A DNA stretch of 37,916 nucleotides, from contig NZ_FZNQ01000022.1 of NCBI RefSeq assembly GCF_900188065.1, positions 1-37,916 on the forward strand. Direction: 5' to 3'. The position numbers were made by a program, and so were the translations under genes. The DNA comes from Halorubrum vacuolatum. GTDB lineage: Archaea; Halobacteriota; Halobacteria; Halobacteriales; Haloferacaceae. Each line of letters opens with the position of its first letter. The first letter of the stretch is position 1. Positions 10,970 through 14,651 of this stretch are shown piece after piece. Under the pieces are notes generated by a model. It was not told where the DNA came from, did no database searches, and saw only the letters and a list, made by a program, of their open reading frames with translations.

Positions 10970-12499
10970 TCAAGCTGGTTCAAGCGCATCGATCTCATCT
11001 ATGATCTGCATCGGGGTTTCAGCGTACTCGATGAACGTAAGAACGTTCTCCGACCACCCTGAGATGTTGTAGACGTTCTCGTATCCTTCCGGGGTCACGA
11101 GTTTGCCGTACGATGCGAGATCGATGAGATACAATGCAGTATCCGCTGCGACTTCATCACGATAGGCGTCGAATTGCGTTTTGACCGTCCGATCGTCGCG
11201 GTGGGTAAACGGCGTGCTGTCCCAAATCTGCATGTCGGTGAAGATGATGATCCGTTCAACAGGCACCTCTTGCTCGCGGAGGTATTCCAGCGCCTTCCAG
11301 CCGTTGGTCGATTGGCCAACCTCTGCATCGATAGCGAGCACGGCCTCCTGACGCTGCAGGACTGGCGTATCCACGTGCATCGAGACCGTCTGGAACTCAT
11401 CACCGAAGCCACCGACACGAGCGCCCTGCTCAGCGAGAAGTGCGCCGAACAATGCGCCGACTTCCTTGAGTCGGAGCGTGCTGTTCAGCGACAGCGGTTG
11501 ATCCATCGACCCTGAGAGGTCCACAGCGACGAATGTTTCGCCAAGGCCATCGGGAACATTCTCGACAGCAACTCCGATCGCATCTTCCAGCCACTGTTCA
11601 ACTGCTGGTGCTTGAATGTCTGCCTCCTGTAATGCATTGTATGCCTGGTAGTACCGGAACGGGTACAACGGTGCGTGGCGCACCGCCTCCAGGTCAAGGT
11701 GAGCAACGATTGTTTCTTCATCAACACCCGCTTCGAGCATATTCCGGAGATTCCGGATTGACGCAAAGATCGGCAGTGCATGCTCATCATCTTCGATGAG
11801 ATCTGTCCACGCGTCTCGGATGTTGCCACGTTCCGAGATAACCGTCTCCCACGTCTTGGGTGAGGGAAGCGGGTCAATGTCTGGATAATCATCCAGGCCG
11901 CCACGCATGAACCGCTCGAACAACTCTGCTTGTTCCTCGTCGATCGGTTCCGGATGGACGCGGTTGAACACGTCGTGCAGCGTCACCTCGCGCCGCGACA
12001 GTTCGTACTTGCCGAGCGTGTACGCATCGGCCATCGAGACGAGCGCGTCTTCGATTCCACGGCGGAGCGGCCACGGTGCAGTCTCGCCAAACAGCGTATC
12101 GTGGATTGCAAGAGTGGTCGCCGTCTCGTCCATCCGCTGGATGATCGATGGAGCCCACTCACGAATCATCGACTCAGGAGAGTCATCCTTGAATCGCTCG
12201 TCGTTGGCCGCTAGCACGAGCAATACCTGCGGAATATCACGCAGGTAGAGTTCTTGCCGAGCGTACGCAGCGAGCTTCAAGACGAATTCCGGGTCTTCGG
12301 CTGCTACAGCGTCGAACCGTCGAACGACAGCTGCTAACTGTTCATCATCGGCCTCGTAGAACGAGTCTTCCAGTAGCTGGTTGATCGTCCGCTTGTATAG
12401 GGCGAGTCGTGGATCCGCGGGTTCGAACGCTTCTCCACCCTCATAGTTGGTGGTACGCGTCGCTTCTGCGACTGTTTGTTTGGGTTCGTTGAATTCCAT
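10970..12499 (-). CDS. Ro60/Rsr-like TROVE and VWA domain RNA-binding protein
   Basis: 509 residues from the ATG at 12499, close to the usual Ro length (about 520-540). The N-terminal 330 residues are the TROVE ring of HEAT-like helices, with recognisable pieces such as LYKRTINQLLEDSFYEADDEQ, LAAYARQELYLRDIPQVLLVLAA and YPFRYYQAYNAL. The C-terminal VWA domain has an intact MIDAS site in FVAVDLSGSMD (Asp-x-Ser-x-Ser) and FTDMQIWD as the later Asp motif. Ro proteins hold misfolded RNA ends in the ring and Y RNA on its outer face. The gene lies 114 bases downstream of a tRNA and three Y-RNA-like elements on the same strand, which strongly suggests a functional unit. A GTG at 12547 is an alternative start; the ribosome site at 12503-12509 favours 12499. 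Confidence 0.9.
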   Translation of the reverse strand: MEFNEPKQTVAEATRTTNYEGGEAFEPADPRLALYKRTINQLLEDSFYEADDEQLAAVVRRFDAVAAEDPEFVLKLAAYARQELYLRDIPQVLLVLAANDERFKDDSPESMIREWAPSIIQRMDETATTLAIHDTLFGETAPWPLRRGIEDALVSMADAYTLGKYELSRREVTLHDVFNRVHPEPIDEEQAELFERFMRGGLDDYPDIDPLPSPKTWETVISERGNIRDAWTDLIEDDEHALPIFASIRNLRNMLEAGVDEETIVAHLDLEAVRHAPLYPFRYYQAYNALQEADIQAPAVEQWLEDAIGVAVENVPDGLGETFVAVDLSGSMDQPLSLNSTLRLKEVGALFGALLAEQGARVGGFGDEFQTVSMHVDTPVLQRQEAVLAIDAEVGQSTNGWKALEYLREQEVPVERIIIFTDMQIWDSTPFTHRDDRTVKTQFDAYRDEVAADTALYLIDLASYGKLVTPEGYENVYNISGWSENVLTFIEYAETPMQIIDEIDALEPA

Positions 12500-12502
12500 A
12501 CT

Positions 12503-12509
12503 ATCACCT
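12503..12509 (-). promoter_or_regulatory. Shine-Dalgarno sequence of the Ro60 gene
   Basis: Minus strand aggtgat, three bases before the ATG at 12499; it matches the haloarchaeal ggaggtgat consensus and decides the start codon. A ribosome site, rather than a leaderless start, fits translation from a longer transcript that could include the RNA array upstream. Confidence 0.6.
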
Positions 12510-12613
12510 GAAGCCGAAACAGGCGGCTCCGAATCGATGCCGCTCACGAACGATGAGCAGCTAACGCCGGGAAGATGCTCTCCCGATCCCAGCCTCGCCG
12601 TGCTCGGCTGGAC

Positions 12614-12687
12614 GTCCCCGGCACGATTCGAACGTGCGACACCCGGCTTCGAAGGCCGGTGCTCTGTCCTGACTGAGCTACGGGGAC
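12614..12687 (-). tRNA. tRNA-Arg (anticodon TCG)
   Basis: 74 bases with a full cloverleaf: acceptor GTCCCCG/CGGGGAC, D-arm GCTC...GAGC, anticodon stem CCGGC/GCCGG with loop CTTCGAA, five-base variable loop, T-arm GCACG-TTCGAAT-CGTGC. All stems pair perfectly. Anticodon TCG reads CGA. It is the last tRNA of the array, four bases after the 12692-12820 RNA. RNase P cleavage at its 5' end would therefore also define the 3' end of that RNA. The discriminator base is G; CCA is not encoded directly after it. Confidence 0.93.
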
Positions 12688-12691
12688 AGGG

Positions 12692-12820
12692 GTGGCCGGA
12701 AAATTGCTGGAGCCTCGACAGCGTGCTCCCAGGTTACACCACGGTGGAAATTCCACCGCCGGGATTCGAACCCGGACCTCCGGCTCCTGAGGCGAAGGAA
12801 GACTCCAGCTCGACGGCCAC
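12692..12820 (-). ncRNA. Y-RNA-like RNA with a circularly permuted tRNA mimic
   Basis: The ends pair as GTGGCCG (12820-12814) with CGGCCAC (12698-12692). An asymmetric internal loop follows (5' TCGAG, 3' CAATTTTC), then an inner helix CTGGAG (12808-12803) with CTCCAG (12712-12707), extended by CCTC/GAGG. The loop end is a tRNA mimic in permuted order: T-arm CCGGG-TTCGAAT-CCCGG (12775-12759), acceptor strand CGGTGGA, a three-base ATT cap, acceptor strand TCCACCG, linker TG, then D-arm GTGT-AACCTGGGA-GCAC (12739-12723). This is the arrangement known from bacterial YrlA-type Y RNAs, where the acceptor stem is loop-capped. The Ro60 gene lies directly downstream. The base pairing is visible; binding to Ro is inferred. 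Confidence 0.8.
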
Positions 12821-12832
12821 GAAATGAGTGAT

Positions 12833-12979
12833 GGCGATCGGAAAACTGTCGAGGCGGGACCCGGTGTCGGAAGCACCCTCGTGCTCCCTTTGTCCGGGAT
12901 GTTCTCGATGGACGACGCCACCGACAGGATTTGAACCTGCGAGTTCCTGACGAAGCAACGCCTCGACTCGACGATCGCC
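12833..12979 (-). ncRNA. Y-RNA-like RNA with a T-arm-containing head
   Basis: Outer helix GGCGATCG (12979-12972) with CGATCGCC (12840-12833). The internal loop is 5' TCGAG, 3' CAGTTTTC, and the inner helix TCGAGGCG (12966-12959) pairs with CGCCTCGA (12856-12849), all eight pairs Watson-Crick. The head has a T-arm GCAGG-TTCAAAT-CCTGT (12940-12924) directly followed by a capped stem CGGTGG/CCATCG (12923-12906). After that come a D-arm-like TCCC-GGACAAA-GGGA (12899-12885) and a small hairpin GCAC-GAGG-GTGC. It shares the internal loop and the pyrimidine-rich TTGCTTCG segment with its neighbours while the helix sequences differ. It is five bases from the next RNA. Its tRNA mimicry is less complete than that of the 12692-12820 RNA. 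Confidence 0.75.
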
Positions 12980-13915: not shown

Positions 13916-13996
13916 GTCGCCGCGAGGATTCGAACCTCGGAAGACCTGTGCCAGCGGGCCTGAACCGCTTCCCGTTGACCACTTGGGTACGGCGAC
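13916..13996 (-). tRNA. tRNA-Leu (anticodon CAG)
   Basis: 81 bases, class II: acceptor GTCGCCG/CGGCGAC, D-arm CCCA...CGGG, anticodon stem AGCGG/CCGCT with loop TTCAGGC, long variable arm GGCACAGGTCTTC, T-arm CGAGG-TTCGAAT-CCTCG. Discriminator A as expected for Leu. Reads CTG. Confidence 0.93.
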
Positions 13997-14039
13997 ACAG
14001 GAGACAGGGGAACCCAGATACCGGTCCAATCACCGGCAT

Positions 14040-14120
14040 GCCGCCACCAGGATTCGAACCTGGGAAGGACTCACCACACGGCCCTCAACCGTGCCCGTTT
14101 GACCACTCGGGCATGGCGGC
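14040..14120 (-). tRNA. tRNA-Leu (anticodon GAG)
   Basis: 81 bases, class II: acceptor GCCGCCA/TGGCGGC, D-arm CCCG...CGGG, anticodon stem CACGG/CCGTG with loop TTGAGGG, long variable arm, T-arm CCAGG-TTCGAAT-CCTGG. Discriminator A. Reads CTC and CTT. A T-arm-like relic (ttggaatcccgg on the minus strand, about 14137-14148) lies between it and tRNA-Ser. Confidence 0.93.
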
Positions 14121-14153
14121 ACGCTACATCCCACGGCCGGGATTCCAACAAAC

Positions 14154-14235
14154 GCCGTGTCCCGGGGTTGAACCGGGCTACCGTTACCGGAACTGGTATA
14201 GCAGACCAGCGGGGTCACCGATCCCCAGACACGGC
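14154..14235 (-). tRNA. tRNA-Ser (anticodon GCT)
   Basis: 82 bases, class II: acceptor GCCGTGT/ACACGGC, D-arm GGGG-ATCGGTGA-CCCC, anticodon stem CTGGT/ACCAG with loop CTGCTAT, variable arm with CCG/CGG helix, T-arm CCCGG-TTCAACC-CCGGG. Discriminator G, the serine identity base. Reads AGC and AGT. Confidence 0.9.
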
Positions 14236-14490
14236 ACGGGAACTGCCGTTTTCTAGGCAGTCAATCATTTGCCTATACACGTATCTCCAACACGCAACCA
14301 AGACCATCGCAGTCGTGGTTGTCGGTTTCGTCACGGGGCGTACTTCGGGTTATCCCGGGAATACTACACCGGACCATGCAGGTTTCAGACCCTTCCGGGC
14401 CCGTACCCGTCGGAACGAGTCAGGTAACCGAACCATCGGACGGATGCCTGCCTCGATGAGTATCCCCATGTGGATTGGCCATGCAGCCAC
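14236..14490 (-). other. Array spacer, 255 bases, no tRNA found
   Basis: No tRNA cloverleaf was found here. Several foldable segments occur on the minus strand. One is an imperfect long hairpin from CCGACAACCACGAC to the TTGGTTGCGTGTTGG side (about 14322-14286). Another is CTGCC-TAGAAAAC-GGCAG near 14259-14242, just before tRNA-Ser. It may hold a further structured RNA or decayed tRNAs. Confidence 0.35.
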
Positions 14491-14563
14491 GCCGACGCCG
14501 GGATTTGAACCCGGATACCGACCGTGACAGGGCCGGATGCTCACCGGATTACATCACGTCGGC
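14491..14563 (-). tRNA. tRNA-Asp (anticodon GTC)
   Basis: 73 bases: acceptor GCCGACG/CGTCGGC, D-arm ATGT-AATCCGGTGA-GCAT, anticodon stem CGGCC/GGTCG with loop CTGTCAC, T-arm CCGGG-TTCAAAT-CCCGG. Discriminator G, the aspartate identity base. Reads GAC and GAT. Confidence 0.92.
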
Positions 14564-14576
14564 ACGCACATGTGAT

Positions 14577-14651
14577 CGCCCCGGCCGGAATCGAACCGGC
14601 GGCCTCTGGATTCAAACTCCAGCGTCCCTCGCCAGCGGAGACTCCGGGGCT
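14577..14651 (-). tRNA. tRNA-Gln (anticodon TTG)
   Basis: 75 bases: acceptor AGCCCCG/CGGGGCG with six pairs and an open A-G end, D-arm GTCTCC...GGGAC, anticodon stem CTGGA/TCCAG with loop GTTTGAA, variable loop AGGCC, T-arm GCCGG-TTCGATT-CCGGC. It reads CAA. A weak first pair is compatible with a Gln tRNA. It is the first tRNA of the array. Confidence 0.82.

Follow-up and report, generated by a model that had tools for sequence, protein, structure and literature searches.

A probable archaeal Ro ribonucleoprotein module with Y RNAs and a tRNA-Y chimera in a tRNA array of Halorubrum vacuolatum

Animals, nematodes and bacteria have Y RNAs, and a locus of the haloarchaeon Halorubrum vacuolatum raises the question of whether an archaeal Ro protein also has such RNAs as partners. 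The locus lies on contig NZ_FZNQ01000022.1 of the assembly GCF_900188065.1, and the stretch of DNA analysed here, referred to as the window, covers its positions 1 to 37,916 on the forward strand (37,916 nt). An earlier, sequence-only reading had described a tRNA array, three structured RNAs, one tRNA and a Ro60/TROVE gene on one strand, and mapping confirmed this layout. We interpret the locus as an archaeal Ro ribonucleoprotein module, in which a single Ro protein is probably accompanied by no fewer than four Y RNAs, designated Y1 to Y4, all encoded in a mobile tRNA array.

The identity of the protein was determined from its domains and its predicted fold. The open reading frame (ORF) matches the Pfam families TROVE (E 4e-21) and vWA_Ro60 (E 7e-7), both above the cut-off, and its conserved HP aligns with Rsr. 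The AlphaFold2 (AF2) model, with a mean predicted local distance difference test score (pLDDT) of 71, has the HEAT-repeat ring with vWA domain of the Ro fold, and all 13 of its best structure matches were to Ro proteins of solved structure (E 1e-20 to 4e-11; template modelling score, TM, 0.56-0.66), including 9kop, 9l5y, 2nvo and 1yvp. The top-matching structures were those of Thermus phage phiLo, Deinococcus Rsr, and Xenopus and human Ro60, and the match in PADLOC was negligible. These results demonstrated that the gene product is, as the sequence-only reading had proposed, a homologue of Ro, the protein known in humans as the lupus autoantigen Ro60.

The three RNAs upstream of the Ro gene, Y1, Y2 and Y3, are all built on a bipartite stem, whose internal loop is asymmetric and conserved and sets CGA opposite UUUUC. 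For Y1, the one nearest to Ro, RNAalifold analysis of 16 homologues (alignment A1) returned the five-helix architecture of YrlA-type RNAs; 12 base pairs were changed on both sides, a number that none of 500 shuffles reached, and 99.6% of the cells were paired, while pairing fell to 38-52% when the partner strand was slid out of register. The T-arm, acceptor hairpin and D-arm, which lay outside the criteria used for selecting the sequences, by themselves accounted for five pairs changed on both sides. An alignment of the short-form stems (A2), which carries the same selection bias as A1, contained 10 such pairs (0/500 shuffles), and the 5′ side of its internal loop, G-N-C-N-A, was invariant. 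The alignment of 25 Y2 sequences folded with a z of -12.7 relative to column shuffles, and the residues that form the tRNA elbow, namely the T-loop and the GG in the D-loop, were conserved among the Y RNAs. Folding of the single sequences gave only a modest gain over shuffles (z -2.9, -2.6 and -1.5), and it is therefore conservation and covariation that carry the case. The shared Y RNA plan recurs in varied form in Y2 and Y3.

The distribution of these RNAs follows that of Ro. TROVE genes are sporadic, being present in 43 of 391 Halobacteria genomes from 22 genera, and nearly all of the sampled Ro loci lie within a large tRNA array of similar gene order that ends, on its 3′ side, with the Y RNAs, tRNA-Arg, Ro and tRNA-Gly. 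One sampled array holds all 20 isotypes by our reading, many have incomplete tRNA sets, and plasmid-borne copies of the Ro module exist. When 48 Ro loci were scanned for bipartite stems whose internal loop is T-rich, the Ro strand gave 184 matches, the opposite strand 20 and dinucleotide-shuffled sequence 21, these being raw matches in which some stems are counted twice. A covariance model (R1, E<1e-6) detected RNAs in 40 of the 43 Ro-positive genomes versus none of the 348 Ro-negative ones (Fisher 2e-51, a value overstated because the genomes are related), and only weak matches, near 8e-4, were found in three Ro-negative genomes. With a second model (R2, E<1e-5), Y RNA matches were located upstream of Ro at 47 of the 48 loci, and the exception (L071, genome G288) appears to be a broken second Ro copy, with a stop codon in the named-contig version. 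That copy lies ~12 kb from an intact Ro module and has neither Y RNAs nor tRNAs upstream. Fifteen held-out loci, fetched later and absent from training, all had matches just upstream of Ro, so that the conservation near other archaeal TROVE genes, whose absence the sequence-only reading had named as one refuting outcome, was found at 47/48 and 15/15 loci. At one locus (L093), a single Y RNA remains beside Ro though ARAGORN detects no tRNA nearby, and therefore the Y RNAs follow Ro and not the array. Collectively, the conserved bipartite stem, the covariation and the exclusive linkage to Ro bear out the earlier claim of a shared, Y-RNA-like architecture, and strongly support the assignment of Y1 to Y3, made from sequence comparison, as YrlA-like Y RNAs that are conserved, show covariation and accompany Ro genes throughout the haloarchaea.

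Several points weigh against this interpretation. R1 and the Y4 model R3 described below were trained on loci inside the class tested, and most of the aligned Y RNA sequences are related to one another. The two stem helices of A1 (helices 1-2) were themselves criteria of selection, and their pairing is for this reason partly by construction. The Ro-binding stem of bacterial and vertebrate Y RNAs has the consensus GNCGAA / CNUUGNC, and the haloarchaeal internal loop agrees with it on the 5′ side (GNCGA) and differs on the 3′ side (UUUUC). Rfam YrlA (RF02553) aligns with Y1 over nearly its full length, but scores 27.7 bits for Y1 and 32.4 and 28.6 bits for relatives against a gathering threshold of 69; because of these scores Y1 was not filed as a member of RF02553, though it is YrlA-like in layout. 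A role of the module in tRNA damage is drawn from analogy and is put forward here tentatively, as a possibility short of an even chance. Three sets of loci are independent of training: the 15 held-out ones, those with a divergent Ro (for R3; in the case of R2, L080 and L092) and those outside the class; the held-out loci are still related to the training loci, and the E-values of the models are rough.

The earlier count of three RNAs stood for Y1 to Y3 but missed a fourth, Y4, which lies further upstream in the array. Y4 is a normally ordered tRNA in which a Y stem, read from the other side, is inserted between the D-arm and the anticodon arm, giving the order acceptor, D-arm, Y-type stem capped by GCGA, GUCCUUC, anticodon arm and T-arm; the 'tRNA-Thr' called by ARAGORN at 13709-13778 is its 3′ part. 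Its helices covary: both bases have changed in seven pairs, a count that none of 500 shuffles reached. Model R3 detected Y4 in 27 of the 43 Ro-positive and none of the 348 Ro-negative genomes of the class, including three genomes with a divergent Ro whose RNAs were outside training, and outside the class it matched just upstream of Ro at L166, L167 and L169 (E 2e-6 to 6e-6). Could the insert be an ordinary archaeal tRNA intron, spliced out to leave a decoding tRNA, with its likeness to a Ro-binding stem convergent or borrowed? Introns are frequent in archaeal tRNAs, a look-alike in the halovirus HGTV-1 is annotated as 'tRNA-Asp + intron', and the anticodon arm of the window Y4 is well formed, with the loop CTTGTAA. 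However, neither a conserved isotype nor a conserved decoding loop, as in an intron-containing tRNA, was found among the Y4 homologues: the anticodon varies among UGU, UUU and UCU, U33 is lost in 6 of 14 homologues, and ARAGORN assigns them many different isotypes. Y4 also has the CGA/UUUUC loop and a UUCCUUC tail, as in Y RNAs, and within the class it is restricted to Ro-positive genomes. These features make splicing to a decoding tRNA an unlikely account of Y4, although one that keeps some weight.

Read as a tRNA-Y chimera, Y4 is a circular isomer of Y1: with its two acceptor ends linked and its stem opened, Y4 becomes Y1, and we infer that tandem Y4 units would produce Y1 at their junction. 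This leads to a joint proposal, which we consider evenly poised between right and wrong: archaea would use two circular isomers, a permuted YrlA-type RNA and an unpermuted Y4 with a Ro-binding stem; the permuted form may be the junction product of tandem chimeras; and RNAs of Y4 type would be a new Y RNA class hidden in annotations as intron-containing tRNAs, including those of HGTV-1 and other Halobacteriota. No description of the unpermuted form was found in the literature searched. If true, the junction origin would explain the source of bacterial and phage YrlA, and the unpermuted chimera suggests a route by which tRNA-mimicking Y RNAs could evolve from tRNAs.

How might such a module work? 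From their sequences, Y1 to Y4 are very probably Ro-bound Y RNAs. They would be transcribed along with the tRNA array, from which tRNA-processing enzymes would release them. The gaps of 3 nt between tRNA-Arg and Y1, 12 nt between Y1 and Y2, and 5 nt between Y2 and Y3 make a single precursor cut by such enzymes plausible; the spacing of 4, 12 and 5 given earlier holds for the latter two values, the first being 3 nt. The CGA/UUUUC internal loop is the proposed docking site, through which the RNAs may contact the Ro ring on its outer face, acting on Ro as a gate or a guide. In Y1, Y2 and Y4, a predicted tRNA-mimicking body is joined to the docking stem; in Y1 it is circularly permuted, with the acceptor stem closed by a hairpin and the anticodon end opening into the Y stem. 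This body may act as an adaptor that recruits tRNA-handling partners, such as the exosome or a tRNA enzyme, whereby Ro could capture misfolded or cleaved tRNAs for tRNA quality control. On plasmids or a virus with their own tRNA set, the module might guard the tRNA supply under tRNA damage. The plasmid copies, the sporadic distribution and the presence of both Ro and RtcB in HGTV-1 suggest a mobile module that handles tRNA damage.

The same three observations are also compatible with an anti-defence tRNA kit of plasmids and viruses, which differs from our explanation only in what the Ro-Y particle does: the tRNAs would replace those cut by anticodon nucleases, and the Ro-Y ribonucleoproteins would sequester or decoy the nuclease and not degrade RNA. 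A competitive-inhibitor role has been suggested for YrlA (PMC7790460), but no nuclease was identified and many arrays are incomplete, and this role for the particle appears doubtful. That the RNAs are cis-acting leaders or processing punctuation for the expression of Ro, and not trans-acting Y RNAs, would fit their position directly upstream of Ro on the same strand; this explanation was rejected as quite improbable on account of the tRNA-Arg that intervenes before Ro at most loci, the Y4 copies far upstream in the array, the tandem multiplicity of 3-5 and the conserved elbow residues. Decayed tRNA genes of a shrinking array that lie near Ro by chance are scarcely credible and largely refuted, for although tRNA pseudogenes occur in almost all archaeal clusters according to a published survey (PMC6333295), and Y1, Y2 and Y4 hold real T-arm sequences, the helices are maintained by compensatory changes, the 348 Ro-negative genomes lack strong matches, a Y RNA persists beside Ro at L093, and the same bipartite stem and loop would not survive decay.

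Table 1. Features of the Ro locus, in window coordinates, with the evidence for each
Feature	Position	Strand	Evidence and remarks
Small protein, 98 aa, function unassigned	10514..10810	-	Downstream of Ro-tRNA-Gly; conserved at most Ro loci
tRNA-Gly(gcc)	10870..10943	-	ARAGORN; downstream of Ro; retained in most relatives
Ro60/TROVE-vWA gene, 525 aa	10970..12547	-	Metal ion-dependent adhesion site (MIDAS) DLSGS; conserved HP at H198
tRNA-Arg(tcg)	12609..12688	-	ARAGORN; between Y RNAs and Ro at most sampled loci
Y1, predicted YrlA-type Y RNA: bipartite stem around circularly permuted tRNA mimic	12692..12820	-	RNAalifold and pair counts, 16 homologues; R1 152.7 bits
Y1 D-arm (GTGT AACCTGGGA GCAC)	12723..12739	-	Helix 5
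Y1 acceptor-like stem closed as hairpin (CGGTGG...CCACCG)	12742..12758	-	Helix 4; three pairs changed on both sides, 100% paired
Y1 T-arm (CCGGGTTCGAATCCCGG)	12759..12775	-	Helix 3; YrlA alignment
Y2, Y-like RNA: T-arm, acceptor-like hairpin, extended D-like arm	12833..12979	-	R1 56.9 bits; R2 58.5 bits
Y3, short Y-like RNA (bipartite stem)	12985..13069	-	A2 pair counts; R2 80.6 bits
tRNA block Glu(ttc), Asn(gtt), Gln(ttg), Val(gac), Met(cat), Glu(ctc)	13116..13678	-	ARAGORN
Y4, predicted unpermuted tRNA-Y chimera	13710..13837	-	Bipartite-stem scan; pair counts; model R3 133 bits
tRNA-Leu(cag), tRNA-Leu(gag), tRNA-Ser(gct)	13914..14236	-	ARAGORN
Structured spacer, ~250 nt, after tRNA-Asp	14237..14488	-	28 arrays, 81% conserved; RNAalifold z -10.9
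tRNA-Asp(gtc) and tRNA-Gln(ttg), array 5′ end	14489..14651	-	ARAGORN

The rest of the locus is made up of tRNA genes and a few smaller features. ARAGORN called 13 tRNAs on the minus strand across 12609-14651, and the Ro gene is flanked by tRNA-Arg and tRNA-Gly, all on the minus strand; with 14 calls in 3.8 kb, the array is a tRNA cluster by the definition of at least 10 tRNAs and at least 2 per kb. At gathering score, Rfam recovered only tRNAs in the window. The structured spacer is probably a non-coding RNA of unassigned kind. An apparent ORF of 39 aa in the Asp-Pro spacer was rejected because most relatives carry in-frame stops. The 98-aa protein downstream of tRNA-Gly has a predicted beta-alpha-beta-beta-alpha-beta fold (AF2 pLDDT 78); no Pfam family matched it above the cut-off, and its Foldseek matches were all of a generic ferredoxin-like sort, with none below E<0.001. 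At the divergent loci L080, L081 and L092, this protein is located upstream of Ro. Elsewhere in the window, both on the minus strand, consecutive genes for HerA, NurA, an SMC/Rad50-like protein and a calcineurin-type phosphoesterase (20522-28395) resemble a DNA end processing or defence cluster, and a MarR-type helix-turn-helix protein adjoins a weakly PemK/MazF-like protein (8276-9024), possibly a toxin-antitoxin pair.

The association of Ro with tRNA genes is already known, as it was published in the 2019 survey by Morgado and Vicente, which lists the H. vacuolatum DSM 8800 cluster (FZNQ01000022.1, 10871-14651), matching the window coordinates, and records TROVE genes for 20 of the 29 archaeal clusters, with some clusters located on plasmids (PMC6333295). 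The sequence-only remark that no description of the arrangement in haloarchaea was known is accordingly incorrect for TROVE in tRNA clusters and stands for the Y RNAs: the parts of the survey examined have no mention of Y RNAs, chimeras or the small downstream protein, and no description of archaeal Y RNAs was found in the literature searched, which left out most subscription papers. With the window RNAs, Y RNAs appear to be documented in archaea for the first time. The haloarchaeal Y RNAs are numerous, conserved, tied to Ro and carried with tRNA genes on plasmids and a virus, and the culturable hosts make the RNA partners of Ro and the link to tRNA damage testable in the third domain of life.

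Comparison with known systems places the module close to bacterial YrlA (RF02553; PDB 6CU1), which superposes on tRNA via circular permutation (PMC11472068). Like YrlA, Y1 has a T-arm, a closed acceptor hairpin and a D-arm inside a Ro stem and lies beside a ro gene, whereas the haloarchaeal RNAs come in several tandem types, within a tRNA array and with a CGA/UUUUC loop. In Deinococcus, the Y RNA tethers Rsr to PNPase, and in Salmonella tRNA fragments switch on the rsr-yrlBA-rtcBA operon, which answers tRNA cleavage (PMC7790460). This RNA repair operon shares with the archaeal module the grouping of Ro and tandem Y RNAs as one unit and the tRNA theme, but no rtcBA was seen beside those haloarchaeal copies whose annotation was examined, and tRNA genes stand there instead. 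In halovirus HGTV-1 (L094), Ro (44.5% identity), RtcB and a tRNA lie near each other, and the annotated 'tRNA-Asp + intron' has, by eye, the layout of the tRNA-Y chimera. Y-like stems were also noted near Ro in this virus, together with the chimera-like gene (5944-6153 and 8890-8985); the R2 search of HGTV-1 gave no significant match, and the stems (~5944-6010 and 8890-8985) are weaker evidence because they were found by eye and then folded. In VanLee, an annotated tRNA-Arg(tct) upstream of Ro (L173, 5674-5745) does not look like a normal tRNA and resembles a piece of a permuted RNA of YrlA type that bears an anticodon loop. In the stretches examined, Streptomyces phage Satis and Gordonia phage VanLee differ from the haloarchaea in having few tRNAs near Ro and no identified unpermuted chimera. 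Their Y RNAs upstream of Ro score 43-47 bits with YrlA, likewise below threshold, and these phages share with the archaeal module YrlA-like RNAs and tRNAs upstream of Ro, and the motif UUACUUC after the inner stem.

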